From: Odontesthes bonariensis
Taxonomy: Eukaryota; Chordata; Actinopteri; Atheriniformes; Atherinopsidae
Length of the DNA: 64,000 nucleotides
Direction: 5' to 3'
Assembly (NCBI RefSeq): GCF_027942865.1
Contig: NC_134525.1
Coordinates: forward strand, 1,432,723-1,496,722
Below the pieces are notes generated by a model, which had not been told where the DNA came from, did not search any database, and worked only from the letters and a program-made list of their open reading frames with translations. The translations under genes and the position numbers were made by a program. Below, piece after piece: positions 3,001 to 63,700 of this stretch (positions are counted from its first letter, which is position 1; each line of letters opens with the position of its first letter).

Positions 3001-6000
3001 CTAACATGTCTAATACATCTCTAACACATATCTAACATGTCTAATACATCTCTAACACATATCTAACATGTCTAACATGTCTAATACATGTCTAATACAT
3101 GTCTAATACATGTCTAATACATGTCTAATACATCTCTAACACATGTCTAATACATGTCTAATACATCTCTAACATGTCTAATACATGTCTAATACATGTC
3201 TAATACATCTCTAACACATATCTAACACATATCTAACATGTCTAATACATGTCTAATACATCTCTAACACATATCTAACATGTCTAATACATGTCTAATA
3301 CATGTCTAATACATCTCTAACACATATCTAACACATATCTAACATGTCTAATACATGTCTAATACATCTCTAACACATCTCTAACATGTCTAATACATGT
3401 CTAATACATGTCTAATACATCTCTAACATGTCTAATACATGTCTAATACATGTCTAATACATCTCTAACACATATCTAACACATATCTAACATGTCTAAT
3501 ACATGTCTAATACATCTCTAACACATATCTAACATGTCTAATACATGTCTAATACATGTCTAATACATCTCTAACATGTCTAACATGTCAAATACATCTC
3601 TAACACATATCTAACATGTCTAATACATGTCTAATACATGTCTAATACATCTCTAACATGTCTAACATGTCTAATACATCTCTAACACATATCTAACATG
3701 TCTAACATGTCTAATACATGTCTAATACATCTCTAACACATCTCTAACATGTCTAATAGATGTCTAATACATGTCTAATACATCTCTAACACATTTCTAA
3801 CACATATCTAACATGTCTAATACATGTCTAATACATCTCTAACACATATCTAACATGTCTAACATGTCTAATACATGTCTAATACATCTCTAACACATAT
3901 CTAACACATATCTAACACATATCTAACATGTCTAACATGTCTAATACATCTCTAACACATATCTAACATGTCTAACATGTCTAATACATCTCTAACATGT
4001 CTAACATATCTAACATGTCTAATACATGTCTAATACATGTCTAATACATATCTAACATGTCTAATACATGTCTAATACATGTCTAATACATCTCTAACAC
4101 ATATCTAACACATATCTAACACATGTCTAATATGTCTAATACATGTCTATTACATTTCTAACACATATCTAACATGTCTAATATGTCTAATACATCTCTA
4201 ACACATATCTAACATGTCTAATACATGTCTAATACATCTCTAACATGTCTAACATATCTAACATGTCTAATACATGTCTAATACATGTCTAATACATATC
4301 TAACATGTCTAATACATGTCTAATACATCTCTAACATGTCTAACATGTCTAATACATGTCTAATACATCTCTAACATGTCTAACATGTCTAACATGTCTA
4401 ATACATGTCTAATACATCTCTAACACATATCTAACATGTCTAACATGTCTAATACATGTCTAATACATCTCTAACACATATCTAACACATATCTAACATG
4501 TCTAACATGTCTAATACATCTCCAACACATATCTAACATGTCTAACATGTCTAATACATGTCTAATACATCTCTAACATGTCTAACATATCTAACATGTC
4601 TAATACATGTCTAATACATGTCTAATACATCTCTAACATGTCTAATACATGTCTAATACATGTCTAATACATCTCTAACACATATCTAACACATATCTAA
4701 CATGTCTAACACATGTCTAATACATCTCTAACACATATCTAACATGTCTAATACATGTCTAATACATGTCTAATACATCTCCAACACATCTCTAACATGT
4801 CTAATACATGTCTAATACATGTCTAATACATCTCTAACATGTCTAATACATGTCTAATACATGTCTAATACATCTCTAACACATATCTAACACATATCTA
4901 ACATGTCTAATACATGTCTAATACATCTCTAACACATATCTAACATGTCTAATACATGTCTAATACATATCTAACATGTCTAATACATGTCTAATACATG
5001 TCTAACACATATCTAACATGTCTAATACATGTCTAATACATATCTAACATGTCTAATACATGTCTAATACATGTCTAATACATCTCTAACATGTCTAACA
5101 TGTCAAATACATCTCTAACACATATCTAACATGTCTAATACATGTCTAATACATGTCTAATACATCTCTAACATGTCTAACATGTCTAATACATCTCTAA
5201 CACATATCTAACATGTCTAATACATCTCTAACACATATCTAACATGTCTAACATGTCTAATACATGTCTAATACATCTCTAACACATCTCTAACATGTCT
5301 AATAGATGTCTAATACATGTCTAACACATTTCTAACACATATCTAACATGTCTAATACATGTCTAATACATCTCTAACACATTTCTAACACATATCTAAC
5401 ATGTCTAATACATGTCTAATACATCTCTAACACATATCTAACATGTCTAACATGTCTAATACATGTCTAATACATCTCTAACACATATCTAACACATATC
5501 TAACACATATCTAACATGTCTAACATGTCTAATACATCTCTAACACATATCTAACATGTCTAACATGTCTAATACATCTCTAACATGTCTAACATATCTA
5601 ACATGTCTAATACATGTCTAATACATGTCTAATACATATCTAACATGTCTAATACATGTCTAATACATGTCTAATACATCTCTAACACATATCTAACACA
5701 TATCTAACACATGTCTAATATGTCTAATACATGTCTATTACATTTCTAACACATATCTAACACATATCTAACATGTCTAATACATGTCTAATACATCTCT
5801 AACATGTCTAACATATCTAACATGTCTAATACATGTCTAATACATGTCTAATACATATCTAACATGTCTAATACATGTCTAATACATCTCTAACATGTCT
5901 AACATGTCTAATACATCTCTAACACATATCTAACATGTCTAATACATCTCTAACACACATCTAACATGTCTAATACATCTCTAACACATATCTAACATGT

Positions 6001-8825
6001 CTAACATGTCTAATACATGTCTAATACATCTCTAACACATATCTAACATGTCTAATACATCTCTAACACATATCTAACATGTCTAATACATCTCTAACAC
6101 ATATCTAACATGTCCTAATACATCTCTAACACATATCTAACATGTCTAACATGTCTAATACATCTCAAACACATGTCTAACATGTCTAACATGTCTAATA
6201 CATCTCTAACACATCTCTAACATGTCTAATAGATGTCTAATACATGTCTAATACATCTCTAACACATTTCTAACACATATCTAACATGTCTAATACATGT
6301 CTAATACATCTCTAACACATATCTAACATGTCTAACATGTCTAATACATGTCTAATACATCTCTAACACATATCTAACACATATCTAACACATATCTAAC
6401 ATGTCTAACATGTCTAATACATCTCTAACACATATCTAACATGTCTAACATGTCTAATACATCTCTAACATGTCTAACATATCTAACATGTCTAATACAT
6501 GTCTAATACATGTCTAATACATATCTAACATGTCTAATACATGTCTAATACATGTCTAATACATCTCTAACACATATCTAACACATATCTAACACATGTC
6601 TAATATGTCTAATACATGTCTATTACATTTCTAACACATATCTAACATGTCTAATATGTCTAATACATCTCTAACACATATCTAACATGTCTAATACATG
6701 TCTAATACATCTCTAACATGTCTAACATATCTAACATGTCTAATACATGTCTAATACATGTCTAATACATATCTAACATGTCTAATACATGTCTAATACA
6801 TCTCTAACATGTCTAACATGTCTAATACATGTCTAATACATCTCTAACATGTCTAACATGTCTAACATGTCTAATACATGTCTAATACATCTCTAACACA
6901 TATCTAACATGTCTAACATGTCTAATACATGTCTAATACATCTCTAACACATATCTAACACATATCTAACATGTCTAACATGTCTAATACATCTCCAACA
7001 CATATCTAACATGTCTAACATGTCTAATACATGTCTAATACATCTCTAACATGTCTAACATATCTAACATGTCTAATACATGTCTAATACATGTCTAATA
7101 CATCTCTAACATGTCTAATACATGTCTAATACATGTCTAATACATCTCTAACACATATCTAACACATATCTAACATGTCTAACACATGTCTAATACATCT
7201 CTAACACATATCTAACATGTCTAATACATGTCTAATACATGTCTAATACATCTCCAACACATCTCTAACATGTCTAATACATGTCTAATACATGTCTAAT
7301 ACATCTCTAACATGTCTAATACATGTCTAATACATGTCTAATACATCTCTAACACATATCTAACACATATCTAACATGTCTAATACATGTCTAATACATC
7401 TCTAACACATATCTAACATGTCTAATACATGTCTAATACATATCTAACATGTCTAATACATGTCTAATACATGTCTAACACATATCTAACATGTCTAATA
7501 CATGTCTAATACATATCTAACATGTCTAATACATGTCTAATACATGTCTAATACATCTCTAACATGTCTAACATGTCAAATACATCTCTAACACATATCT
7601 AACATGTCTAATACATGTCTAATACATGTCTAATACATCTCTAACATGTCTAACATGTCTAATACATCTCTAACACATATCTAACATGTCTAATACATCT
7701 CTAACACATATCTAACATGTCTAACATGTCTAATACATGTCTAATACATCTCTAACACATCTCTAACATGTCTAATAGATGTCTAATACATGTCTAACAC
7801 ATTTCTAACACATATCTAACATGTCTAATACATGTCTAATACATCTCTAACACATTTCTAACACATATCTAACATGTCTAATACATGTCTAATACATCTC
7901 TAACACATATCTAACATGTCTAACATGTCTAATACATGTCTAATACATCTCTAACACATATCTAACACATATCTAACACATATCTAACATGTCTAACATG
8001 TCTAATACATCTCTAACACATATCTAACATGTCTAACATGTCTAATACATCTCTAACATGTCTAACATATCTAACATGTCTAATACATGTCTAATACATG
8101 TCTAATACATATCTAACATGTCTAATACATGTCTAATACATGTCTAATACATGTCTAATACATCTCTAACACATATCTAACACATATCTAACACATGTCT
8201 AATATGTCTAATACATGTCTATTACATTTCTAACACATATCTAACACATATCTAACATGTCTAATACATGTCTAATACATCTCTAACATGTCTAACATAT
8301 CTAACATGTCTAATACATGTCTAATACATGTCTAATACATATCTAACATGTCTAATACATGTCTAATACATCTCTAACATGTCTAACATGTCTAATACAT
8401 CTCTAACACATATCTAACATGTCTAATACATCTCTAACACACATCTAACATGTCTAATACATCTCTAACACATATCTAACATGTCTAACATGTCTAATAC
8501 ATGTCTAATACATCTCTAACACATATCTAACATGTCTAATACATCTCTAACACATATCTAACATGTCTAATACATCTCTAACACATATCTAACATGTCCT
8601 AATACATCTCTAACACATATCTAACATGTCTAACATGTCTAATACATGTCTAATACATGTCTAATACATCTCTAACACATATCTAACATGTCTAATACAT
8701 CTCTAACACATATCTAACATGTCTAACATGTCTAATACATGTCTAATACATGTCTAATACATCTCTAACACATATCTAACATGTCTAATACATCTCTTAC
8801 ACATTTCTAACGTGTCTTATACATG
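1..8825. repeat. Large satellite array of 9-11 bp units
   Basis: The whole stretch is a head-to-tail mixture of short units such as CATGTCTAA (9 bp), TACATGTCTAA (11 bp), TACATCTCTAA and CACATATCTAA. It is already running at base 1, so its left end is outside the window. The order of unit variants is itself repeated: the rare variant TCTATTACATTT appears near 4147, 5737, 6621 and 8220, giving a higher-order spacing of about 2.48 kb (4147 to 6621, 5737 to 8220). Stop codons are dense and I see no gene. It ends in unique DNA near 8825. Confidence 0.97.
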
Positions 8826-20545: not shown

Positions 20546-22332
20546 GGGGTGAGAGCAGCAAACTACAGGCTTTTATTTTGTGAAAGTCTGTTGCTCAGAG
20601 GCTTTTATTTTGTGAAAGTCTGTTGCTCACATGCTTTTATTTTTGTAAAAGTCTGTTACTCACAGGCTTTTATTTTGTAAAAGTCTGTTGCTCACAGGCT
20701 TTTATTTTGTAAAAGTCTGCTGCTCACAGGCTTTTATTTTGTGAAAGTCTGTTGCTCACAGGCTTTTATTTTGTAAAAGTCTGCTGCTCACAGGCTTTTA
20801 TTTTGTGAAAGTCTGTTGCTCACAGGCTTTTATTTTGTAAAAGTCTGCTGCTCACAGGCTTTTATTTTGTGAAAGTCTGTTGCTCAGAGGCTTTTATTTT
20901 GTAAAAGTCTGTTGTTCACAGGCTTTTATTTTGTAAAAGTCTGTTGTTCACAGGCTTTTATTTTGTAAAAGTCTGCTGCTCACAGGCTTTTATTTTGTGA
21001 AAGTCTGCTGCTCACAGGCTTTTATTTTGTGAAAGTCTGTTGCTCACAGGCTTTTATTTTGTAAAAGTCTGCTGCTCACAGGCTTTTATTTTGTGAAAGT
21101 CTGTTGCTCACAGGCTTTTATTTTTGTAAAAGTCTGTTACTCACAGGCTTTTATTTTGTAAAAGTCTGTTGTTCACAGGCTTTTATTTTGTAAAAGTCTG
21201 TTGTTCACAGGCTTTTATTTTGTAAAAGTCTGTTGTTCACAGGCTTTTATTTTGTAAAAGTCTGTTGCTCACAGGCTTTTATTTTGTGAAAGTCTGTTGC
21301 TCAGAGGCTTTTATTTTGTAAAAGTCTGTTGCTCACAGGCTTTTATTTTGTAAAAGTCTGTTGCTCACAGGCTTTTATTTTTGTAAAAGTCTGTTACTCA
21401 CAGGCTTTTATTTTGTGAAAGTCTGTTGCTCACATGCTTTTATTTTTGTAAAAGTCTGTTACTCACAGGCTTTTATTTTGTAAAAGTCTGTTGCTCACAG
21501 GCTTTTATTTTGTAAAAGTCTGCTGCTCACAGGCTTTTATTTTGTGAAAGTCTGTTGCTCACAGGCTTTTATTTTGTAAAAGTCTGCTGCTCACAGGCTT
21601 TTATTTTGTGAAAGTCTGTTGCTCACAGGCTTTTATTTTGTAAAAGTCTGCTGCTCACAGGCTTTTATTTTGTGAAAGTCTGTTGCTCAGAGGCTTTTAT
21701 TTTGTAAAAGTCTGTTGCTCACAGGCTTTTATTTTGTAAAAGTCTGTTGCTCACAGGCTTTTATTTTTGTAAAAGTCTGTTACTCACAGGCTTTTATTTT
21801 GTAAAAGTCTGTTGTTCACAGGCTTTTATTTTGTAAAAGTCTGTTGTTCACAGGCTTTTATTTTATAAAAGTCTGTTGTTCACAGGCTTTTATTTTGTAA
21901 AAGTCTGTTGCTCACAGGCTTTTATTTTGTGAAAGTCTGTTGCTCAGAGGCTTTTATTTTGTAAAAGTCTGTTGCTCACAGGCTTTTATTTTGTAAAAGT
22001 CTGTTGCTCACAGGCTTTTATTTTTGTAAAAGTCTGTTACTCACAGGCTTTTATTTTGTAAAAGTCTGTTGTTCACAGGCTTTTATTTTGTAAAAGTCTG
22101 TTGTTCACAGGCTTTTATTTTGTAAAAGTCTGCTGCTCACAGGCTTTTATTTTGTAAAAGTCTGTTGCTCACAGGCTTTTATTTTGTAAAAGTCTGCTGC
22201 TCACAGGCTTTTATTTTGTAAAAGTCTGTTGCTCACAGGCTTTTATTTTGTAAAAGTCTGTTGCTCACAGGCTTTTATTTTGTAAAAGTCTGTTGCTCAC
22301 AGGCTTTTATTTTGTAAAAGTCTGTTGCTCAT
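20546..22332. repeat. 32-bp minisatellite, block 1
   Basis: About 55 copies of a 32-bp unit made of GTAAAAGTCTGTTGCTCAC followed by AGGCTTTTATTTT. Variants alternate GTAAAAG/GTGAAAG and TTGCTC/CTGCTC/TTGTTC. Groups of variants recur in the same order, showing block duplication. The same unit forms block 2 at 40025-40500 inside a hAT element. The segment just after this block (22330-22372, GATTAATTAGATTAAACAT then GCCCAGC) matches the right end of that hAT. Confidence 0.96.
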
Positions 22333-40012: not shown

Positions 40013-40024
40013 TTTATTATTTAT

Positions 40025-40500
40025 TTTATTATTGTAAAAGTCTGCTGCTCACAGGCTTTTATTTTGTAAAAGTCTGCTGCTCACAGGCTTTTATTTTGTA
40101 AAAGTCTGTCGTTCACAGGCTTTTATTTTGTAAAAGTCTGTTGCTCACAGGCTTTTATTTTGTAAAAGTCTGTTGCTCACAGGCTTTTATTTTGTAAAAG
40201 TCTGCTGCTCACAGGCTTTTATTTTGTAAAAGTCTGTCGCTCACAAGCTTTTATTTTGTAAAAGCCTCTTGCTCACAGGCTTTTATTTTGTAAAAGTCTG
40301 TTGCTCACAGGCTTTTATTTTGTAAAAGTCTGCTGCTCACAGGCTTTTATTTTGTAAAAGTCTGCTGCTCACAGGCTTTTATTTTGTAAAAGTCTGTTGC
40401 TCACAGGCTTTTATTTTGTAAAAGTCTGTTTCTCACAGGCTTTTATTTTGTAAAAGTCTGCTGCTCACAGGCTTTTATTTTGTAAAAGTCTGCTGCTGTC
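40025..40500. repeat. 32-bp minisatellite, block 2 (inside hAT)
   Basis: About 15 copies of the same 32-bp unit as 20546-22332 (GTAAAAGTCTGCTGCTCAC plus AGGCTTTTATTTT). The spacing is strictly 32 except for the truncated last unit. Confidence 0.95.
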
Positions 40501-40544
40501 TGCTGTGGAACAGGAAAAGAAAGTAATCGGCGGATCCACCAAAC

Positions 40545-40850
40545 ATGGAGAAGGGTACGGAACTTTTACTCGGCCATTTTCATTTTAAAGTTCTTCCAGA
40601 CGGCGGAGTCGACAGAACCAAAGTCATCTGTAAACTCTGCCAAGTTGAATTGTCTTCTCAGCGTAGTAGTTCCAGTCTAAAATATCACTTAAAGGCAAAA
40701 CACACAACTGATAGCAGCAAGTCATTCAAGGAAACAGACAGTGGAGCGAGGCTTCTACATAAAAACTACAGAAAGATGCTGATGTTAAAAGTGTGTTTGC
40801 ACAACAAATGTTATGGCACTTTCATTCATATGGCAGCACATTTAAAATAA
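40545..40850 (+). pseudogene. BED-type zinc finger fragment of a hAT transposase
   Basis: A 101-codon frame starting ATG at 40545 contains KVICKLCQVELSSQRSSSS and LKYHLKAKH, i.e. C-x2-C ... H-x4-H, the BED zinc finger found at the N-terminus of hAT transposases. The rest of the transposase (RNase-H-like catalytic core and dimerisation region) is absent. It is thus a remnant retained in a non-autonomous derivative. Confidence 0.75.
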
Positions 40851-43846: not shown

Positions 43847-44209
43847 ATGGCAGATAAAGCTGGCATGCCGGCCGGTGGGGGGGACGATGCGGGCAGCATC
43901 ATGGCGCTGCTGGAGCGCGTGGCCGGCCTCATGGAGAGCGTCCAGACCACGCAGCAGCGCATGGAGGAGCGCCAGCAGGAGCTGGAGAGCACGGTGAAAA
44001 CCATCCAGGCTGATGTGGTCAAGCTCACCAGCGACCATGCCAACACCAACTCCACGGTGGACCGGCTGCTGGAGAAGACGCGCAAGGTCAGCCGCCACGT
44101 CAAAGACGTCCGGGTGCGCGTGGAGAACCAGAACCTGAGGGTGAAGAAGGTGGAGGCCACCCAGGGGGACCTGCTGGCCAAGAACAAGTTTAGGGTGGTC
44201 ATTTACCAG
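43847..44209 (+). CDS. cavin4: cavin4 coding exon 1: HR1 coiled coil
   Basis: 121 codons. Starts [17 protein letters not shown], then the heptad-rich HR1 ([36 protein letters not shown]), ending [11 protein letters not shown] exactly at TTTACCAG before GTAAGAGC. The ATG at 43847 is the first that leads directly into cavin-like sequence. The last 27 bases plus the donor are the parent of the 32-bp array that begins at 44210. Confidence 0.93.
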
Positions 44210-47200
44210 GTAAGAGCAAGTTCAGGGTGGTCATTTACCAGGTAAGCGCAAGTTCAGGGTGGTCATTTACCAAGTAAGAACGGGTTCAGGGTGGTCATTT
44301 ACCAAGTAAGACCGGGTTCAGGGTGGTCATTTACCAAGTAAGAGCAAGTTCAGGGTGGTCATTTACCAGGTAAGAGCAAGTTCAGGGTGGTCATTTACCA
44401 GGTAAGAGCAAGTTCAGGGTGGTCATTTACCAGGTAAGAGCAAGTTCAGGGTGGTCATTTACCAGGTAAGAGCAAGTTCAGGGTGGTCATTTACCAGGTA
44501 AGCGCAAGTTCAGGGTGGTCATTTACCAGGTAAGCGCAAGTTCAGGGTGGTCATTTACCAGGTAAGCGCAAGTTCAGGGTGGTCATTTACCAGGTAAGAG
44601 CAAGTTCAGGGTGGTCATTTACCAGGTAAGCGCAAGTTCAGGGTGGTCATTTACCAAGTAAGAACGGGTTCAGGGTGGTCATTTACCAAGTAAGACCGGG
44701 TTCAGGGTGGTCATTTACCAAGTAAGAGCAAGTTCAGGGTGGTCATTTACCAGGTAAGAGCAAGTTCAGGGTGGTCATTTACCAGGTAAGAGCAAGTTCA
44801 GGGTGGTCATTTACCAGGTAAGAGCAAGTTCAGGGTGGTCATTTACCAGGTAAGAGCAAGTTCAGGGTGGTCATTTACCAGGTAAGAGCAAGTTCAGGGT
44901 GGTCATTTACCAGGTAAGCGCAAGTTCAGGGTGGTCATTTACCAGGTAAGCGCAAGTTCAGGGTGGTCATTTACCAAGTAAGAACGGGTTCAGGGTGGTC
45001 ATTTACCAAGTAAGACCGGGTTCAGGGTGGTCATTTACCAGGTAAGAGCAAGTTCAGGGTGGTTATTTACCAGGTAAGAACAAGTTCAGGGTGGTCATTT
45101 AAGGGTAAGAACAAGTTCAGGGTGGTCATTTAAGGGTAAGAGCAAGTTCAGGGTGGTCATTTACCAGGTAAGAACAAGTTCAGGGTGGTTATTTACCAAG
45201 TAAGAACGGGTTCAGGGTGGTCATTTACCAGGTAAGAACAAGTTCAGGGTGGTCATTTACCAGGTAAGAGCAAGTTCAGGGTGGTCATTTACCAGGTAAG
45301 AACAAGTTCAGGGTGGTCATTTACCAGGTAAGAACAAGTTCAGGGTGGCCATTTAAGGGTAAGAGCAAGTTCAGGGTGGTTATTTACCAAGTAAGAACAA
45401 GTTCAGGGTGGTTATTTACCAGGTAAGAACAAGTTCAGGGTGGTTATTTACCAAGTAAGAACAAGTTCAGGGTGGTTATTTACCAGGTAAGAACAAGTTC
45501 AGGGTGGTTATTTACCAAGTAAGAACAAGTTCAGGGTGGTTATTTACCAGGTAAGAACAAGTTCAGGGTGGTTATTTACCAGGTAAGAACAAGTTCAGGG
45601 TGGTTATTTACCAAGTAAGAACAAGTTCAGGGTGGTTATTTACCAGGTAAGAACAAGTTCAGGGTGGTTATTTACCAGGTAAGAGCAAGTTCAGGGTGGT
45701 CATTTACCAAGTAAGAACGGGTTCAGGGTGGTCATTTACTAGGTAAGAACAAGTTCAGGGTGGTCATTTAAGGGTAAGAACGGGTTCAGGGTGGTCATTT
45801 ACTAGGTAAGAACAAGTTCAGGGTGGTCATTTAAGGGTAAGAACAAGTTCAGGGTGGTCATTTACTAGGTAAGAACAAGTTCAGGGTGGTCATTTAAGGG
45901 TAAGAGCAATTTCAGGGTGGTCATTTAACAGGTAAGAACAAGTTCAGGGTGGTTATTTAAGGGTAAGAACAAGTTCAGGGTGGTCATTTACTAGGTAAGA
46001 ACAAGTTCAGGGTGGTCATTTAAGGGTAAGAGCAATTTCAGGGTGGTCATTTAAGGGTAAGAACAAGTTCAGGGTGGTTATTTAAGGGTAAGAACAAGTT
46101 CAGGGTGGTCATTTACTAGGTAAGAGCAAGTTCAGGGTGGTCATTTACCAGGTAAGCGCAAGTTCAGGGTGGTCATTTACCAGGTAAGCGCAAGTTCAGG
46201 GTGGTCATTTACCAGGTAAGCGCAAGTTCAGGGTGGTCATTTACCAGGTAAGAGCAAGTTCAGGGTGGTCATTTACCAGGTAAGCGCAAGTTCAGGGTGG
46301 TCATTTACCAAGTAAGAACGGGTTCAGGGTGGTCATTTACCAAGTAAGACCGGGTTCAGGGTGGTCATTTACCAAGTAAGAGCAAGTTCAGGGTGGTCAT
46401 TTACCAGGTAAGAGCAAGTTCAGGGTGGTCATTTACCAGGTAAGAGCAAGTTCAGGGTGGTCATTTACCAGGTAAGAGCAAGTTCAGGGTGGTCATTTAC
46501 CAGGTAAGAGCAAGTTCAGGGTGGTCATTTACCAGGTAAGAGCAAGTTCAGGGTGGTCATTTACCAGGTAAGCGCAAGTTCAGGGTGGTCATTTACCAGG
46601 TAAGCGCAAGTTCAGGGTGGTCATTTACCAAGTAAGAACGGGTTCAGGGTGGTCATTTACCAAGTAAGACCGGGTTCAGGGTGGTCATTTACCAGGTAAG
46701 AGCAAGTTCAGGGTGGTTATTTACCAGGTAAGAACAAGTTCAGGGTGGTCATTTAAGGGTAAGAACAAGTTCAGGGTGGTCATTTAAGGGTAAGAGCAAG
46801 TTCAGGGTGGTTATTTACCAAGTAAGAACGGGTTCAGGGTGGTCATTTACCAGGTAAGAACAAGTTCAGGGTGGTTATTTACCAAGTAAGAACGGGTTCA
46901 GGGTGGTCATTTACCAGGTAAGAACAAGTTCAGGGTGGTCATTTACCAAGTAAGAACGGGTTCAGGGTGGTCATTTACCAGGTAAGAACAAGTTCAGGGT
47001 GGTCATTTACCAGGTAAGAGCAAGTTCAGGGTGGTCATTTACCAGGTAAGAACAAGTTCAGGGTGGTCATTTACCAGGTAAGAACAAGTTCAGGGTGGCC
47101 ATTTAAGGGTAAGAGCAAGTTCAGGGTGGTTATTTACCAAGTAAGAACAAGTTCAGGGTGGTTATTTACCAGGTAAGAACAAGTTCAGGGTGGTTATTTA

Positions 47201-50200
47201 CCAGGTAAGAACAAGTTCAGGGTGGTTATTTACCAAGTAAGAACAAGTTCAGGGTGGTTATTTACCAGGTAAGAACAAGTTCAGGGTGGTTATTTACCAA
47301 GTAAGAACAAGTTCAGGGTGGTTATTTACCAGGTAAGAACAAGTTCAGGGTGGTTATTTACCAGGTAAGAACAAGTTCAGGGTGGTTATTTACCAAGTAA
47401 GAACAAGTTCAGGGTGGTTATTTACCAGGTAAGAACAAGTTCAGGGTGGTTATTTACCAGGTAAGAGCAAGTTCAGGGTGGTCATTTACCAAGTAAGAAC
47501 GGGTTCAGGGTGGTCATTTACTAGGTAAGAACAAGTTCAGGGTGGTCATTTAAGGGTAAGAACGGGTTCAGGGTGGTCATTTACTAGGTAAGAACAAGTT
47601 CAGGGTGGTCATTTAAGGGTAAGAACAAGTTCAGGGTGGTCATTTACTAGGTAAGAACAAGTTCAGGGTGGTCATTTAAGGGTAAGAGCAATTTCAGGGT
47701 GGTCATTTAACAGGTAAGAACAAGTTCAGGGTGGTTATTTAAGGGTAAGAACAAGTTCAGGGTGGTCATTTACTAGGTAAGAACAAGTTCAGGGTGGTCA
47801 TTTAAGGGTAAGAGCAATTTCAGGGTGGTCATTTAACAGGTAAGAGCAAGTTCAGGGTGGTCATTTAAGGGTAAGAACAAGTTCAGGGTGGTTATTTAAG
47901 GGTAAGAGCAAGTTCAGGGTGGTTATTTAAGGGTAAGAGCAAGTTCAGGGTGGTCATTTACCAGGTAAGAACAAGTTCAGGGTGGTTATTTACTAGGTAA
48001 GAACAAGTTCAGGGTGGTTATTTACCAGGTAAGAGCAGGTTCAGGCTGGTTATTTACTAGGTAAGAACAAGTTCAGGGTGGTTATTTACTAGGTAAGAAC
48101 AAGTTCAGGGTGGTCATTTAAGGGTAAGAACAAGTTCAGGGTGGTTATTTACCAGGTAAGAACAAGTTCAGGGTGGTCATTTAAGGGTAAGAACAAGTTC
48201 AGGGTGGTTATTTACTAGGTAAGAACAAGTTCAGGGTGGTTATTTACTAGGTAAGAACAAGTTCAGGGTGGTCATTTAAGGGTAAGAACAAGTTCAGGGT
48301 GGTTATTTACTAGGTAAGAACAAGTTCAGGGTGGTTATTTACCAGGTAAGAGCAGGTTCAGGCTGGTTATTTACTAGGTAAGAACAAGTTCAGGGTGGTT
48401 ATTTACCAGGTAAGAACAAGTTCAGGGTGGTCATTTAAGGGTAAGAGCAGGTTCAGGCTGGTTATTTACCAGGTAAGAACAAGTTCAGGGTGGTTATTTA
48501 CCAGGTAAGAACAAGTTCAGGGTGGTTATTTACCAGGTAAGAGCAGGTTCAGGCTGGTTATTTACCAAGTAAGAATGGGTTCAGGGAGGCTGAGCTTCTC
48601 TACTGCCTCATGGAGCCTCTGCAGTTTGTAAGGTGGTGATAAGATGTGGAGATGGTGCTGCATCCTAAAGCATGATCCTGTCTGATGACCGAACTCAGAC
48701 CAAGTGAGAATCATTCGGACCAGCAGGGCCGTTCTGCAGCAGATTTAGCAGAACCGCCTCTGAACTCAGGGCTAAGCAGGGCTGCTGGTGGAATGGGTGC
48801 CAGAGATAGTTGGGTTCACATCCCGCCAACACAGAACGGAGCAGAAAAAGCTCTCCTGGTTGAATTTGCTGCACGATTCTCCGCTTCAGGCTCCGTCAGC
48901 AGCAGATTTATCGGTCAGAAAGGTGTTCGGCCTGTTTGTTAAAGACTCTGAGAGTCTTTGTTCGTCTCTGAGCTGAACTTTTAGTTTCTACATTTTGTTT
49001 ACCCACATCTGAGGGTTTTTTAAAATGAGTGCCGGGGGGATAAATGTCTCTGAGGTTGAAATAGCAACAACACGCACGCTGGCATGCACGGCTTCAGTTT
49101 ACCTCTTTGGCCTTCACAGTTAGCAGCTGCCAACACCTCTTTGGCCTGGTTATTTTAGCCCGCTGAAAGGTTACTCTGCAGAGCAGAGCTCAGAGGGAGA
49201 CCTCTCACTCGGACTCAAATCCAAAGGATTATTTAGTGCTTCGGGGGGCTGAATGTTTGGGTCTTTAAGGTGTGTTGGAGGTGTGACTGAGATGCTCAGC
49301 TCAAACCTCAGCAGCTCCGGGTCAACATGTCAGCCAGCTTCCTGACCTCTGTGAGGTCACAGAATCCTGCACCGTGATTGGCTGCTGGACGTCAGGCTGC
49401 AAAGATTTCTGCTCTCTGCATCGGTGCATGTCCACTGCAGCGTGGCTCAGAGGGAGTTCTGCTCACGGCAGATGGAACGTGAGGTTCTCTCACAGGTATC
49501 CAGCGCCTCACCCGAGCTCCACAGCCTCACTCTGCTGCTCCAGAAGAAGCCAGAGGAGGCTGTAGGGGCCATTTCAGTGCAACAAATGTCATCTCAAGGC
49601 ACTTAAATAATAAAGTCCAATTCAAGCCAATTGGAATTCAATTCATTGTAATCATAATTATTTACAAAATAATCCAATTCATTCATATAGAGCCAATTCA
49701 AAAACAGTTTCCTAGCTAAGGAAACCAACAGATTGCACTGAAACTTGTCTTCGGTCCAATCTCCCGTCCTGAGCGGGCCTGAGGCGACTGTGGAGAGGAA
49801 CAACTCCCTTTGAACAGGAAGAAACCTCTGGCAGAACCAGAACCAGAACCAGACTCAGGAAGGGTGGCCATCCGCCTCCACCAGCTGGGGTTTGAGAAGA
49901 CAGAAAAGAGGGGACAACAAACACTGTAACACCATTCAAAGGACATCTGTTGGAACAGGGAAACACGAGTTAATGACCACAATAATGTCACATGGACATA
50001 ATATCATTTGGGAAAATTCTGGCCTCGTTTTGCTCGTTAGCTGCAGAGACAGTCGAGGTTCCAGTGGGCCGCTGGATCAGACCTGAGCTGCCCCCTCGTC
50101 TTATCTTGGACCAGAAGGTTTTTAGTTGTGGTTTGGATTCTAACGTTTGAGCATCACAGCTGCTGCTGTGGAAGCTTTATCAGCCCACCCGTTCGTATGT

Positions 50201-53200
50201 GCACACACCAAAGCATCGAACATCCCTCCGATGCTCCGTCACAAGACGTGGAAATCACATGAAAACCCGTCAGAGCTCCACCGTGCAGCATGTGCTGAGC
50301 TCTCAGAGTCTGTACTGTAAGTGTGCGTGCCAGCTGAGCGCCGACAGACCGGGTTATTCTGAGTCTGAACAGCCACCATCTCCTAATATAGCTGTCTGCT
50401 CATCCCCTGGTAAGCCTGGTCCGATGGTCCTGTGAGCTGCCGACAGGCCGCTGCCTGCAGGTTTGAGTTCGGCTGGTGGAGAAGCGCTGAAGCTGTGGGG
50501 TCAGCTGGGTCAGGTGACCTGTGACCCTCGGCCCTGATCACAACATCTAGTTTTATTCTAAACTGCATGCTCCTGCTGTGTGACAGGTATGACAGTGATG
50601 CCTCCTGTCACAGCTCTGGAAATGTCAGCCTCCCTATCGGGTGTCATATCGCGCCCATGATGCGTGTAATCAAAGCTCCTGATGCTGCTATTAGCCATGG
50701 AAGAGAGTTTAACTCATGCTGGGCTGAAAAAAACTAAATACTTCATGTTCCTGAGGTGGCAGACGGGAAGAAGGTGGCTTTGTTTCCACGGTTCAGGGGG
50801 AGTTCAGAAGGTCTGCAGCACATTTATGACCCAGAACAGTTAGAACATCAGCCCGAGCTGTTCTTTCCTGTTGGGTCGTTTCAAACCAGAGGCTCAAATG
50901 GAGGCCCAGCATCGGTGGTCAGTGTGGGCAGCTGAGGGTGGTTAAACCCTGGATCAGAGTCCGTTTGCACCTCAGTTTCAGTGTCACCTGATCTCAGGGA
51001 CAGATGCACGCCATGATGCAGCCCGGAGCTGAAAGCGATCCAGCTCGGCTCCGTGTGCACGCTGCTGCTCGCTGATATGTTTAGCTTCCTGCAGCAACAG
51101 GTGCTGCAGTTTATTTATGGAGGCAGGATCCAGGCCCGCACACTAACTGCTCAGGCCTGCCTGACGCACTTTAACCGCAGACTTATACCCGACATCACAT
51201 CAAGCTTTGTCCAGATTTAAACCCGACATCACATTAAACTTTGTCCAGATTTAAACCCGACATCACATCAAACTTTGTCCAGACTTAAACCGGACATCAC
51301 ATTAAACTTTGTCCAGACTTAAACCGGACATCACTGTCACACTTTGTCCAGACTTAAACCGGACATCACTGTCACACTTTGTTCAGACTTAAACCCGACA
51401 TCCCATTAAACTTTGTCCAGACTTAAACCGGACATCACTGTCACACTTTGTCCAGACTTATACCCGACATCACATCAAGCTTTGTCCAGATTTAAACCCG
51501 ACATCACATCAAACTTTGTCCAGATTTAAACCCGACATCCCATCAAACTTTGTCCAGACTTAAACCCGACATCCCATCAAACTTTTTTCAGACTTAAACC
51601 CGACATCACATTAAACTTTGTCCAGACTTAAACCGGACATCACTGTCACACATTGTCCAGATTTAAACCCGACATCACATCAAACTTTGTCCAGACTTAA
51701 ACCCGACATCACATCAAACTTTGTCCAGACTTAAACCCGACATCACATCAAGCTTTGTCCAGACTTAAACCGTACATCACATTAAACTTTGTCCAGATTT
51801 AAACCTGACATCACATCAAACTTTGTCCAGACTTAAACCGGACATCACATTAAACTTTTTTCAGACTTAAACCCGACATCACATCAAACTTTGTCCAGAC
51901 TTAAACCCGACATCACATCAAACTTTGTCCAGACTTAAACCCGACATCACTGTCACACTTTGTCCAGATTTAAACCCGACATCACATCAAACTTTGTCCA
52001 GATTTAAACCCGACATCACATCAAACTTTGTCCAGATTTAAACCCGACATCACATCAAACTTTGTCCTGATATAAACCCGACATCACTGTCACACTTTGT
52101 CCAGACTTAAACCCGACATCACATCAAACTTTGTCCAGATTTAAACCCGACATCACTGTCACACTTTGTCCAGACTTAAACCCGACATCACTGTCACACT
52201 TTGTCCAGATTTAAACCCAACATCACTGTCACACTTTGTTCAGATTTAAACCCGACATCACTGTCACACTTTGTTCAGATTTAAACCCGACATCACATCA
52301 AACTTTGTTCAGACTTAAACCCGACATCACTGTCACACTTTGTTCAGATTTAAACCCGACATCACTGTCACACTTTGTTCAGATTTAAACCCGACATCAC
52401 ATCAAACTTTGTTCAGACTTAAACCCGACATCACTGTCACACTTTGTTCAGATTTAAACCCGACATCACATCAAACTTTGTTCAGACTTAAACCCGACAT
52501 CACTGTCACACTTTGTTCAGATTTAAACCCGACATCACATCAAACTTTGTCCAGATTTAAACCCAACATGACATCAAACTTTGTCCAGATTTAAACCCGA
52601 ATGTCAGACTTTTAAAAGGCGTTTGGACCACAGTTCACACTCTGTCCTTTGCTCTCCTGCAGGGCGACCAGGAGGTGAAAGCCGTCACCCCAGGCAACGA
52701 GCCCGTGGAGTCCAGCGGCGCCGCCGCAGCTAAGCCCGAGGTGGAGCCCGACAAGTTCGACCTGCCTCCAGAGTCGGACGAAGAGTATATGGTGGTGGAG
52801 GAGGCGGATTCCTCATCCGCAGGCCGCACCAAGAAGACCGGCCTGAGTCGCATCGAAAGCTTCAAAGCAACCTTCTCCAAGGAGAACATGAGCAAGACCC
52901 GCGAGAACCTGGGCACCAAGGTCAACAAACTGGGCGAGCGCATTGTGACGGCAGAGAGACGCGAGAAGATCCGTCAGTCCGGGGAGAGGCTGAAGGAGAC
53001 CATCACCAAGAGCGTCCCTGCGAAGCTCAACCTGAAGAAGGAGAGGACTGTGGCGGAGGGCCAGGAAGGAGCCGAGGGGGCCTCCGAGGGGGCCGCGCCC
53101 GTCCCGCCTCCCAAGGGCCACAAGGGCAGCCCGCAGGCCGCCAAGGCGGCCGACGACGAGGCCAAGGCGGAGGAGTCCGAGGTGCCGATGTACGACATGA

Positions 53201-53214
53201 AGCAGCTGTCATAA
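43847..53214 (+). CDS. cavin4: cavin4 (MURC): muscle caveolae-associated protein, two coding exons (spliced)
   Basis: Cavins coat caveolae; cavin-4 is the striated-muscle member and has roles in T-tubule/caveola organisation and Rho/ROCK and ERK signalling. Exons 43847-44209 and 52663-53214 join in phase 0 to give 304 aa plus stop (human 364). Residues about 15-121 form the helical HR1 trimerisation region, with LLEKTRKVS and the KFRVVIYQ end typical of cavin-4. Exon 2 gives an acidic region, the conserved [35 protein letters not shown], and [10 protein letters not shown], all close to mammalian cavin-4. The two-exon structure is the family norm. The 8.45 kb intron has a 4.4 kb array at its donor and a 1.4 kb array at its acceptor. 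Adjacency to tmeff1 supports orthology. Paralogue a or b is undetermined. Confidence 0.93.
44210..48590 (+). repeat. 32-bp minisatellite of ~137 duplicated 5' splice sites (cavin4 intron 1)
   Basis: Tandem 32-bp units, each made of the donor GTAAGAGCAAG, then TTCAGGGTGGTC, then ATTTACCAG. This is the end of cavin4 exon 1 plus the first intron bases, repeated. Variants after GTAAG: AGC, CGC, AAC, ACC. Variants before it: ACCAG, ACCAA, ACTAG, AACAG and AAGG. The GTAAG core is kept in essentially every copy I read. Blocks of copies recur with the same variant order (offset 1654 bp, e.g. 44651 to 46305 and 44971 to 46625). The array ends in unique sequence near 48590. Confidence 0.97.
48591..51175. 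other. Middle of cavin4 intron 1
   Basis: About 2.6 kb with no gene recognised. At 49613-49970, strings such as GGCGACTGTGGAGAGGAACA and GGAAGAAACCTCTGGCAGAA, with (CAGAAC)n, match a sequence type common in fish retroelement 3' regions. The rest is unremarkable. Short frames (48685-48942, 50199-50435) show no domain. Confidence 0.45.
51176..52606. repeat. 34-bp minisatellite at the acceptor end of cavin4 intron 1
   Basis: About 42 copies of a 34-bp unit built from ACATCACATCAAACTTTG and TCCAGACTTAAACCCG. Main variants are CATCACTGTCACAC for CATCACATCAAAC, and TTCAG for TCCAG. It ends about 55 bases before the exon 2 acceptor at 52661-52662. Local frames are artefacts. Confidence 0.96.
52663..53214 (+). 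CDS. cavin4: cavin4 coding exon 2: C-terminal half
   Basis: Acceptor TTTGCTCTCCTGCAG. 183 codons and stop TAA. It opens [16 protein letters not shown], then an acidic stretch with [14 protein letters not shown], then basic HR2-like sequence ([46 protein letters not shown]), [12 protein letters not shown], and an Ala/Pro/Lys-rich low-complexity end. Compared with mammals, the C-terminus is shorter. Codon use is strongly G/C-ending, like exon 1. Confidence 0.93.
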
Positions 53215-57776: not shown

Positions 57777-60700
57777 CTGCGGACGGACGAGGGATTAGAA
57801 CGTGTCATCTTTATCTTTTTTAAAGCCGAACAGAAACAGAACAAAATGGCTGTGTTCGAAACCGCATACTACATACTTCCATACTACATACTTCCATACT
57901 ACATACCGCATACTACATACTTCCTACTACATACTGCACACTACATACTACATACTACATTCTACATACTGCATACTACATACTACATACTGCATACTGC
58001 ATACTACATACTTCCATACTACATACTTCCATACTACATACCGCATACTACATACTTCCTACTACATACTGCACACTACATACTACATTCTACATACTGC
58101 ATACTACATACTGCATACTACATACTCATCGATCAGACAGTATGCAGAGTGTTTACCCACAATGCATTTCGCTCCTGCCCGAGCCGAAATCAGCCGGCCT
58201 GAAGCTGATTTCTCTTAAGCTCTAAACTCTGTAAACTTTAGCAACATTTGAAACATTTTCAGGTGAGAAAGTAGTCGTTTAGATCCCCAACGTGTTGAAA
58301 ACCTGACAAAATACCGGCTGTTTACAATTTTGTTCCCACGAATTCGGCGCTACTAAAGCTAGCCGCAGTGAGCTAACGCACTTCCGGTTATTTTCACAAA
58401 ATAAAATACCCGTTGCCTTTTATCATAGGGAAAGCCATTACCATACAATTGGTGCTTTTGTTTTGAAAACAGGAAGTGAACCTACCCTCGTTGTAGCTAG
58501 CTTGAAACTGCCGTTTTGACAGGAAATGGCGATCGGCGACTTTACGTTACGTTGCATCTTGGGTAGTTTGAGTACGAGTAGTAACCCATTTCGGAGAATC
58601 TCGTATGCATCCGGGAACTTCTCGCTTACTCAAACTCGCATACTAACTCAAAAAGTTAGTAGGAGTAGTAGGAGAAGTATGTGGTTTGGAACACAGCCAC
58701 TGACCTTGAGCGGGGCTTCAGCCAGTTTGGCACCACGTCGGTCCCATCCCGCCCCATCCAGGAAGAGCCCGTATATGTAGGCCCCACCCACATGCTCAGG
58801 AGGCGGGGCTGACACGTCCTCCCTCATCATCTTGGTGACATCGTTGCTGAGGACGACGGTGTCCAAGGCCCAACCGGCGGACAGGTTGGAGCGCGTCGTC
58901 TCCTGACACACGGCGGTCAGAAAACCCTGAAACACAAACCGCCACGTGAATAAAACCAGGACGTTTCTGAGCCGGCGTGTTCCCAGAGCGCCGATCCAAC
59001 CTGCGGGTTGAAGAAGCCGGTGAGCCAGAACTGATTCGGGCGGCCGGCGCCGATCCAGACGCCGAGTTGCTGGTTCCTCTGCAGCAGCTCGCCGAACCAG
59101 AAGCCCAGCGTGGCCGCCGGCCAGCTGAGCCGTAGCCACAGGCGAGGGACGCAGGCGTCAAACACGCAGTCCAGCGCGTCCCGCAGGTCCTCCGACATGA
59201 TGATGGAACCTGCAGAACGGAGACGGACGGAAAATAAAAGCTCAGTTTAGTTTTTACCCAAAACCTGACGAATGTTAAAGATTAAAATGTGATGAACTAT
59301 CAGAGGTGATCCTGTGATGTCACTGTGAGGTCACTCAGCAGGTGATCCTGAGTGTGTTTGTCGGTGTGACTGACCGTCGATGGCCAGTTTCAGGTCGGTG
59401 AGCGTGCTCCGTACGCTGCTGATGACCCGCTGCATGCGCTCCAGTTCCTGTCGGAGGAAGATGTTCATTGGCTGAAGTGGACCCATCTTCTGCAGTTGAC
59501 CTTTCACCTTTTAAAACACACACAGAAGTAATGTTGAGCCGGAGAGACTTTGGCTGTGTTCGAAACCGCATACTTCTCCTACTACTCATACTAACTTTTT
59601 GAGTTAGTATGCGAGTTTGAGTAAGCGAGAAGTTCCCGGATGCATACTAGATTCTCCGAAATATTGGGTATGCATCATGAGGTTACTACTCATACTCAAA
59701 CTACCCAAGATGCAACGTAACGTGACGTCGCCGATCATCATTTCCTGTCAAAACAGCAGTTTTAAGCTAGCTACAACGAGGGTAGGTTCACTTCCTGTTT
59801 TCAAAACAAAAGCACCAATTGTATGGTAATGGCTTTCCCTATGATAAAAGGCAACGGGTATTTTATTTTGTGAAAATAACAGGAAGTGCGTTGCTCACTG
59901 CGGCTAGCTTTAGTAGCGCCGAATTCGTGGGAACAAAATTGTAAACAGCCGGTATTTTGTCAGGTTTTCAACACGTTGGGGATCTAAACAACTACTTTCT
60001 CTCCTGAAAATGTTTCAAATGTTGCTAAAGTTTACAGAGTTTAGAGCTTAAGAGAAATCAGCTTCAGGCCGGCTGATTTTGGCTCGGGCAGAGCGCAATG
60101 CATTGTGGGTAAACACTCTGCATACTGTCTGATCGATGAGTATGTAGTATGTAGTATGCGGTTACGAACACAGCCGATGGCTTTCAGTCAGCTGGGGCGC
60201 CAGCTCACATTGGCCCCGCCCCAGCTCACATTGACCCCGCCCCAGCTCCCATTGGCCCAGCCCCAGCTCACATTGGCCCCGCCCCAGCTCACATTGACCC
60301 CGCCCCAGCTCCCATTGGCCCCGCCCCAGCTCACTTGGCCCTGAAGCTAAACCCACCCGGTGAACACTCTGTTAACACTGAATACTCTCTGATCTGTCCG
60401 TGGTTCACACACCTCATGCGGAACGTAGTCAGGCGGCAGCTTCTGCAGCATCTCGTCGGCCTGGCACCGCACGCCGGCCTCCCTGGTCTCTCCGGCTCCG
60501 CCCCCGCCGTCCTTCGGCTGGATGCTGGTGATGGTGCGGAACGTCTCGTTGGCCAGGTTGGTCTGATAGGTGATGTCGGCGTTGGGGTGGAGCCCAAACA
60601 CCTGCAGACGGGCCGAGTTTAGGAAGAGGCTGCTGGTCTGGGGACCCTTTTAAAATGCGTGTCAGACCTCGGGGGAGTCGAGCAGCGGCAGCGCCTCGAT

Positions 60701-63700
60701 GTGCCGCAGGACGTCCTGGACGGTCCGGGGCTTAGTGGGGACGCCGTAGCCCTCATAGAAGCAGAAGTCCTCGCTGAAGGTGTTCTCGCTGAACCAGACG
60801 CGCGTGAAGGTGTTCAGGAGACGTTTGTCCAAGTCGTCCGTCACCCGGCCGCCATACTGGACCTCACCTGCATCCCAAACACAGAAACACAGCTAACACG
60901 GGACTTCCTGCTTCAACATCTGGTCTGTTAGGAGCCTTCAGTTATCAGGCCCCTCTCTGTGGAACCAGCTGCCAGTTTGGGAGGCAGAGCCTTCAGTTAT
61001 CAGGCCCCTCTCTAGGTATTCTCTAACGGGTGGGTATTCTCTAACGGGTGGGTATTCTCTAGGGGTGGGTATTCTCTAACGGGTGGGTATTCTCTAACGG
61101 GTGGGTATTCTCTAGGGGTGGGTATTCTCTAACGGGTGGGTATTCTCTAACGAGTGGGTATTCTCTAATGGGTGGGTATTCTCTAGGGGTGGGTATTCTC
61201 TAACGGGTGGGTATTCTCTAGAGGTGGGTATTCTCTAGGAGTGGGTATTCTCTAGGGGTGGGTATTCTCTAGCGAGTGGGTATTCTCTAATGGGTGGGTA
61301 TTCTCTAGGGGTGGGTATTCTCTAACGGGTGGGTATTCTCTAGGGGTAGGTATTCTCTAGGGGTGGGTATTCTCTAGCGAGTGGGTATTCTCTAATGGGT
61401 GGGTATTCTCTAGGGGTGGGTATTCTCTAGAGGTGGGTATTCTCTAGGAGTGGGTATTCTCTAGGGGTGGGTATTCTCTAACGTGTGGGTATTCTCTAGG
61501 GGTGGGTATTCTCTAACGGGTGGGTATTCTCTAGAGGTGGGTATTCTCTAACGGGTGGGTATTCTCTAACGGGTGGGTATTCTCTAGGAGTGGGTATTCT
61601 CTAGGGGTGGGTATTCTCTAGAGGTGGGTATTCTCTAGAGATGGGTATTCTCGAGGAGTGGGTATTCTCTACGGGTGGGTATTCTCTAACGGGTGGGTAT
61701 TCTCTAGGGGTGGGTATTCTCTAACGGGTGGGTATTCTTTAGGGGTGGGTATTCTCTAACGGGTGGGTATTCTCTAACGGGTGGGTATTCTCTAGGAGTG
61801 GGTATTCTCTAGGGGTGGGTATTCTCTAGAGGTGGGTATTCTCTAGGAGTGGGTATTCTCTAGGAGTGGGTATTCTCTAGAGGTGGGTATTCTCTAGGAG
61901 TGGGTATTCTCTAGGGGTGGGTATTCTCTAACGTGTGGGTATTCTCTAGGGGTGGGTATTCTCTAACGGGTGGGTATTCTCTAACGGGTGGGTATTCTCT
62001 AACGGGTGGGTATTCTCTAGGAGTGGGTATTCTCTAGGGGTGGGTATTCTCTAGAGGTGGGTATTCTCTAGGAGTGGGTATTCTCTAGAGGTGGGTATTC
62101 TCTAGAGGTGGGTATTCTCTAGGAGTGGGTATTCTCTAGGAGTGGGTATTCTCTAACGGGTGGGTATTCTCTAACGGGTGGGTATTCTCTAACGGGTGGG
62201 TATTCTCTAACGGGTGGGTATTCTCTAGGGGTGGGTATTCTCTAACGGGTGGGTATTCTCTAACGGGTGGGTATTCTCTACGGGTGGGTATTCTCTAACG
62301 GGTGGGTATTCTCTAGGGGTGGGTATTCTCTAACGGGTGGGTATTCTTTAGGGGTGGGTATTCTCTCGGAGTGGGTATTCTCTAATGGGTGGGTATTCTC
62401 CAGGGGTGGGTATTCTCTAGGGGTGGGTATTCTTTAGGAGTGGGTATTCTCTAACGGGTGGGTATTCTCTAGGAGTGGGTATTCTCTAGGGGTGGGTATT
62501 CTCGAGGGGTGGGTATTCTCTAGAGGTGGGTATTCTCTGGGGGTGGGTATTCTCTAACGGGTGGGTATTCTCTAGGTGTAGGTATTCTCTTGGGGTGGGT
62601 ATTCTCTAGGAGTGGGTATTCTCTAACGGGTGGGTATTCTCTAGGAGTGGGTATTCTCTAACGGGTGGGTATTCTCTAGGAGTGGGTATTCTCTAACGGG
62701 TGGGTATTCTCTAGGAGTGGGTATTCTCTAGGGGTGGGTATTCTCGAGGGGTGGGTATTCTCTAGAGGTGGGTATTCTCTGGGGGTGGGTATTCTCTAGG
62801 GGTGGATATTCTCTAGGGGTGGATATTCTCTAACGGGTGGGTATTCTCTAGGGGTGGATATTCTCTAAAGGGTGGGTATTCTCTAGGGGTGGATATTCTC
62901 TAACGGGTGGGTATTCTCAAGGGGTGGATATAATCTAGGGGTGGATATTCTCTAACGGGTGGGTATTCTCGAGGGGTGGGTATTCTCTAGAGGTGGGTAT
63001 TCTCTAGGGGTGGATATTCTCTAGGGGTGGGTATTCTCTAACGGGTGGGTATTCTCTAGGGGTGGGTATTCTCGAGGTTTGGGTATTCTCTAGAGGTGGG
63101 TATTCTCTGGAGGTGGGTATTCTCTAGGGGTGGGTATTCTCTAGGGGTGGGTATTCTCTAGAGGTGGGTATTCTCTAGGGGTGGGTATTCTCTAGGGGTG
63201 GGTATTCTCTAGGGGTGGGTATTCTCTAGAGGTGGGTATTCTCTGGGGGTGGGTATTCTCTAGGGGTGGATATTCTCTAGGGGTGGGTATTCTCTAACGG
63301 GTGGGTATTCTCTAGAGGTGGGTATTCTCTGGAGGTGGGTATTCTCTAGGGGTGGGTATTCTCTAGAGGTGGGTATTCTCTAGGGGTGGGTATTCTCTAG
63401 AGGTGGGTATTCTCTAGAGGTGGGTATTCTCTGGGGGTGGGTATTCTCTAGGGGTGGGTATTCTCTAGAGGTGGGTATTCTCTAGAGGTGGGTATTCTCT
63501 AGGGGTGGATATTCTCTAGGGGTGGGTATTCTCTAGGGGTGGGTATTCTCTAGAGGTGGGTATTCTCTAGAGGTGGGTATTCTCTAGGGGTGGGTATTCT
63601 CTAACGGGTGGGTATTCTCTAGGGGTGGGTATTCTCTAGGGGTGGGTATTCTCTAGGATAACTCCAGAATATATGGGTCTGCTCTGTGTGCCTGAACGTC

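Follow-up and report, generated by a model that had tools for sequence, protein, structure and literature searches.

How does a transcript settle on its splice donor when the exon edge carrying that donor is repeated head to tail far into the following intron, and does such a repeat serve the gene or is it simply carried along? The question is raised by a cavin4b gene in the 64,000-nt stretch of teleost DNA analysed here (the window), for which a first-pass annotation had reported that the edge of exon 1 and its donor are amplified about 137-fold into a "decoy" array.

The cavin4b gene and its exon-edge array

The gene and the array are laid out as follows.

43847..44209, + strand: coding part of cavin4b exon 1 (363 nt, 121 codons, phase 0), assigned by Pfam, structure match and homologues
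44210..44217, + strand: native splice donor, CAG/GTAAGAGC, read directly; U1 pairing -11.0 kcal/mol
44180..48586, + strand: donor minisatellite (TRF); 137 units past the native donor, 138 GTAAG including the native one
52663..53214, + strand: coding part of cavin4b exon 2 including the stop; acceptor CTGCAG/GGC at 52662/52663

Joining the first donor to 52663 removes an intron 1 of 8.45 kb and yields a product of 304 aa. Residues 14-121 of this product match the Pfam family PF15237 (PTRF_SDPR, E 1.9e-48), its nearest solved chain is 4qkw, "Muscle-related coiled-coil protein", and its top homologue (best 120 of 489) is caveolae-associated protein 4b of the atheriniform silverside Leuresthes tenuis, with 93% identity over the whole length; together, these matches uphold the earlier naming of the gene as cavin4. 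Given this top homologue, the DNA probably comes from a silverside-like fish. PF15237 is present in all 120 homologues listed (best 120 of 489), of which the best informatively named ones are caveolae-associated proteins 4a/4b, cavin4 and muscle-related coiled-coil protein. Since the reading frame runs uninterrupted through exons 1 and 2 and can be aligned with the orthologues over its full length, the coding sequence suggests that the correct cavin4b product is still made.

The existence of an array of exon edge plus donor in about 137 copies is confirmed. TRF calls it at 44180-48586 with a period of 32, 138.5 copies and 92% matches, thus spanning the exon-intron boundary from a start inside exon 1 (which ends at 44209) to 4.4 kb into the intron; as a tandem repeat, it is far beyond chance. 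Between the start codon and 48600, a scan for GTAAG gave 138 sites from 44210 to 48569, with the extra donors at 44242-48569. Neighbouring sites lie 32 nt apart in 112 of the 137 intervals and 31 nt apart in the other 25, and because no interval within the array skips a donor, GTAAG, which had been credited to nearly all copies, is found in 138 of 138 sites. The table of U1 pairing used below holds 139 sites, as it includes one GTAAG outside the array, at 48628.

Other details of the first description need adjustment. The period of 32 applies to 112 of the 137 units, the other 25 being 31 nt long with a terminal AGG in place of CCAG; units of the longer kind end with CCAG, CCAA, CTAG or ACAG. 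AG/GT is present at 85 of the 138 sites and GT at all of them, and 27 distinct types occur among the 137 units. Copies were said to differ from the native junction by one or two bases. Compared with the 30-nt exon end, this is correct for 54 of the 112 units of 32 nt, with one (4 units) or two mismatches (50), while the rest show three (29), four (22), five (4) or six (3); the 25 units of 31 nt were left out of this count. A fading of the copies with distance from the exon was considered and rejected, as the regional means of mismatches in the 32-nt units, 2.93, 2.55, 2.89, 2.63 and 3.29 from 5' to 3', follow no clear gradient.

Origin and growth of the array

The peptide encoded at the exon edge is found in all 120 listed homologues (best 120 of 489), identical in 114, as KNKFKVVIYQ in five and as KNKYRVVIYQ in one. 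Upon alignment of the protein with 19 homologues chosen from these 120, K112-Q121 shows no variation, and the residues next in line in the orthologues are G-(D/E), as in exon 2 here. A second Gouania entry (P0072) contains a 21-residue insert between the edge peptide and G-(D/E), which is not array-like; neither of two short peptides expected from translation of the array was found in any of the 120 listed homologues. Because the edge peptide occurs throughout these homologues, the protein comparison bears out the proposal that the exon is the ancestor and the array the derivative.

The anatomy of the junction indicates how the unit may have been formed. From 44180, the exon end reads AAGAACAAGTTTAGGGTGGTCATTTACCAG (30 nt), which the closest units match with one mismatch. 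An 11-mer in two versions one base apart, AAGAACAAGTT / AAGAGCAAGTT, flanks the native junction on both sides; AAGAGCAAGTT follows the native GT and equals the start of the exon-end segment save for one base. As the stretch behind the GT thus repeats the start of the exon segment, the unit appears to correspond to some 30 nt of exon followed by the GT of the intron. With AAGA at the beginning of the exon segment, every joint in the head-to-tail series would re-create CAG/GTAAGA, a near-consensus donor built largely of exon bases, with exon-derived letters from position +3 on. Array and exon show a single fixed difference, C instead of T in a Phe codon of the exon (column 14, C in 137 of 137 units), which is synonymous. 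In this reconstruction from the anatomy, the founder event would have been a head-to-tail duplication of exon segment plus GT across the exon 1/intron 1 boundary, followed by growth through unequal exchange or replication slippage, in the course of which a block of 52-57 units was recently doubled:

44466..46119, + strand: internal block 1, 52 units
46120..47932, + strand: internal block 2, 57 units

The two blocks are identical at 1648 of 1653 aligned bases (99.7%), with 161 gap columns and five substitutions, while shuffling the order of the units (n=20) gave a mean block identity of 93% and a maximum of 94%. Such identity in a shared unit order is best read as a recent expansion of the array that included the doubling of a block. 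An assembler that inflated or invented the copy number would be another source of it, as the misassembly of a doubled block would also leave near-identical copies; however, the gap columns and substitutions between the blocks and the 27 unit types among 137 make such an artefact very unlikely. An error could lie in the block doubling but hardly in the existence of the array itself.

Tandem arrays (TRF score of at least 200) cover 43.7% of the window (1-64000), the largest being located at 1-8825; hence, arrays arise often in this window. Two separate arrays, at 20565-22331 and 40024-40497, share one 32-bp unit up to rotation (TTTTATTTTGTAAAAGTCTGTTGCTCACAGGC) although they lie about 18 kb apart. 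An open frame at 40527-40850 encodes a BED zinc finger (Pfam zf-BED, 1.8e-07) and is perhaps a transposon remnant.

Choice among 138 donors

The consequences of donor choice for the protein follow from translation of all donors.

44243..44245, + strand: in-frame TAA met with donor 3 or any later donor; 132-aa product

Only the first donor yields the 304-aa protein. Donor 2 leads to a product of 136 aa with a stop inside exon 2, and donors 3-138 (136 of 138) lead to 132 aa; the frame logic of the first-pass annotation, with a frameshift at the second donor and the TAA from the third onward, therefore holds. By the usual rule, a stop codon located farther upstream of a junction than 50-55 nt marks a transcript as a target for decay. 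With 135 of the 138 donors, the stop precedes the junction by 50 nt or more, so that RNAs mis-spliced in this way should undergo nonsense-mediated decay.

Donor strength was expressed as the pairing energy with the 5' end of U1. Of 138 donors, 69, including the native one, pair at -11.0 kcal/mol, 16 at -9.4, 25 at -8.9 and 28 at -4.5. The repeat units thus resemble the donor consensus, but the donors, described as near-identical, are not all equal. Sites 3-5 are weak (CAA/GTAAG, -4.5), and sites 6-14 match the native strength. Greater structural openness of the native donor was considered as well; the predicted probability of 9 nt being unpaired is 0.0039 there and has a median of 0.0012 in the array (quartiles 0.0004 and 0.015), so that predicted accessibility does not single the native donor out. 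Because 69 of 138 donors are equal in U1 pairing and the accessibility of the native one is unremarkable, donor strength and local folding alone, as modelled here, do not explain a preference for the first donor.

Exon enhancers, proximity to the cap or the order of transcription might favour the first site. Under the influence of SRSF1 or hnRNP A1, competition between donors can be decided in either direction (PMC5585400), and the intron-proximal site may be preferred, e.g., with SRSF1. Were this to be the rule at cavin4b, later donors would be the main ones, exon 1 would grow by up to 4.36 kb and the gene would be damaged here. Against this stands the intact frame for 304 aa, 93% identical to the Leuresthes tenuis protein; had the gene been lost like this, signs of decay should have appeared in it unless the array is very young, and we regard this outcome as most improbable.

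The word "decoy" implies a function, of which the sequence-based analysis of the array gave no sign. Only 12 of the 32 columns of the unit vary, and invariance of all five GTAAG columns has p = 0.077 if variable columns fall at random; thus, the invariance of GTAAG across 138 sites is not significant and selection on it was rejected as evidence of function. This also weighs against a tunable brake, by which slips to later donors would cause truncation at 132 aa and decay, and the output of cavin4b would fall as the array lengthens. Such a brake would draw on the 136 of 138 donors that lead to the 132-aa product, on the stop position with 135 of the 138 and on the native U1 pairing shared by 69 sites, native included, and in human IFI6 two repeat units further downstream reportedly act as donors (PMC4526556). 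On the other side, comparable arrays of lancelets are reported not to give rise to aberrant mRNAs (PMC3087553, PMC3902484). Nothing in the analysis specifically favours a length-dependent brake, and we do not consider it likely. Its more elaborate form is improbable: a splicing rheostat, in which the share of the first donor would depend on array length and on levels of splicing factors, and heritable or somatic changes of length would set cavin4b output in muscle. In a milder form of this reading, the exon context or cap-proximity of one donor would prevail over its more than a hundred near-identical rivals farther along the transcript.

U1-complementary sites are not confined to the donor array. 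The + strand of the remaining window has 137 sites at -8.9 kcal/mol or better, and 116 of these lie within one other array, at 61015-63657, whose 17-bp unit (GGTATTCTCTAGGGGTG) presents GGGTGGGTAT on the + strand, complementary, with wobble pairs counted, to 10-11 nt at the 5' end of U1 (-11.2 to -12.6 kcal/mol). On the - strand, 58648-60649 holds exons for the C-terminal domain of an axonemal dynein heavy chain, with Dynein_C in three of the four frames scanned; the piece at 60347-60649 falls below the curated cut-off of Pfam and matches solved dynein heavy chains, one of them Dynein axonemal heavy chain 5. Because these exons adjoin the 17-bp array, its U1 sites are probably antisense to the dynein heavy chain gene. 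Many U1-complementary sites can, therefore, arise without being donors.

This bears on the idea of a landing strip, on which many U1 snRNPs bound to the array would keep the 8.45-kb intron from being cleaved and polyadenylated prematurely or would raise the output of the gene. In its favour, the array holds 110 sense-strand sites at -8.9 kcal/mol or lower and the rest of the intron (48593-52662) none, and seven AATAAA/ATTAAA motifs lie in the intron downstream of the array, six of them inside a second array. However, the unrelated 17-bp array has its 116 sites probably antisense to the apparent host gene, and the donor sites are predicted to lie in phases of the unit with lower accessibility; we rate the landing strip as highly unlikely.

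Recursive splicing inside the array is also unlikely, as the upstream pyrimidine share at the 85 AG/GT sites averages 0.50, compared with 0.875 at the native acceptor and 0.49 at all + strand CAG in the window. The second array is located next to this acceptor:

51178..52600, + strand: second, unrelated array with a 34-bp unit containing acceptor-like CTTTGTYCAG (TRF); ends 62 nt before exon 2

Of its 41 CAG sites, at least 34 are preceded by ACTTTGTY; their pyrimidine share (mean 0.65, maximum 0.75) is below that of the native acceptor. The unit and the pre-acceptor stretch (CACACTTTGTCC / CACACTCTGTCC) match weakly, with a best local score of 22, which was equalled by 14 of 500 and 23 of 500 shuffles for two stretches; for a third one, lacking most of the CACACTTTGTCC / CACACTCTGTCC match, the score was 17 and 99 of 500 shuffles equalled it. 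The second array is a possible acceptor-side counterpart at exon 2, although this match is not significant.

Taken together, the donor array probably is a tolerated passenger, a minisatellite of the mirage type (see below) lying across the exon 1/intron 1 boundary of cavin4b. The first donor, joined to the real exon, would serve most transcripts, and use of a later one would cause a frameshift or early stop and degradation of the RNA, which together would make the array tolerable and presumably neutral. The passenger is favoured over its rivals because GTAAG is not significantly preserved, because the window is rich in arrays and because U1 sites also occur in another array. By analogy, the lancelet arrays, reported to leave splicing undisturbed, would speak for a passenger, while IFI6, where downstream units can be used, would speak against it, as would the modelled equality of 69 of 138 donors (native included) in U1 pairing and the no more accessible native site. 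The cavin4b transcript is, in effect, a natural competition among 138 donors, half of them with native U1 pairing, in which the full protein is obtained from the first alone. Should the first donor prevail nevertheless, the decision must lie with position or exon context, and comparing alleles that differ in length would gauge how strongly.

Comparison with known repeat-borne splice sites

The first-pass annotation knew of no described case of a minisatellite whose unit is a functional exon/donor junction at this copy number. This does not stand, since both the lancelet mirages (PMC3087553, PMC3902484) and a donor minisatellite of human IFI6 (PMC4526556) precede it. With these already described, the cavin4b array belongs to a known kind; it is its copy number, not its kind, that is unusual. 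A splice-donor array in cavin-4 itself was not found in the literature searched, an absence that is weak because most subscription papers lay outside the search.

Tandem repeats are also known from the evolution of introns. In PMC3087553, Rogers is cited for intron gain through duplication of segments with AG/GT proto-splice sites, and PMC2812944 describes intron changes via internal tandem repeats in human paralogues. As in intron gain of the Rogers type, the duplicated segment of cavin4b carries AG and GT; unlike it, the repeats lengthen an existing intron and establish no new intron position.

The minisatellite of human IFI6 (6-16, G1P3) has a 12-bp unit and about 26 copies. It "provides multiple splice donor sites" (Turri, Cuin and Porter 1995, via PMC4526556), and two of its downstream units are reported to serve as donors. 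The same work is cited in PMC3618361 as an example of splicing disturbed by a minisatellite and, furthermore, in PMC2915984 and PMC2572611. Like IFI6, cavin4b has a vertebrate minisatellite with many donor sites; however, the extra donors of IFI6 are used and give rise to isoforms, whereas those of cavin4b would nearly all truncate the protein.

The closest parallel is provided by the mirages of lancelets (amphioxus), i.e., tandem repeats that straddle exon-intron boundaries and in which the AG/GT signals recur, for which Adh, troponin C and the globins BflGb6 and BflGb9 are named (PMC3087553, PMC3902484); imperfect repeats over splice sites are additionally mentioned for PGBD5 (PMC3902484). 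According to PMC3087553, BflGb6 has six and three units on two haplotypes, Adh3 units measure 10-72 bp, many units carry AG/GT, both 5' and 3' boundaries can be affected, and regular splicing is said to be undisturbed. On this description, the cavin4b array is of the same build, a minisatellite-like duplication across an exon-intron boundary in which AG/GT is repeated. The internal block doubling at 99.7% identity, seen in one assembly, may reflect the instability in length through unequal exchange that marks mirages. In contrast to the lancelet mirages, the host is a teleost, the 32-bp unit is almost wholly exonic in origin and, compared with the six and three units given for BflGb6, there are 137 extra units. 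The mirage phenomenon would, thus, extend from the lancelet to a fish gene, with a copy number far above the lancelet counts cited here.
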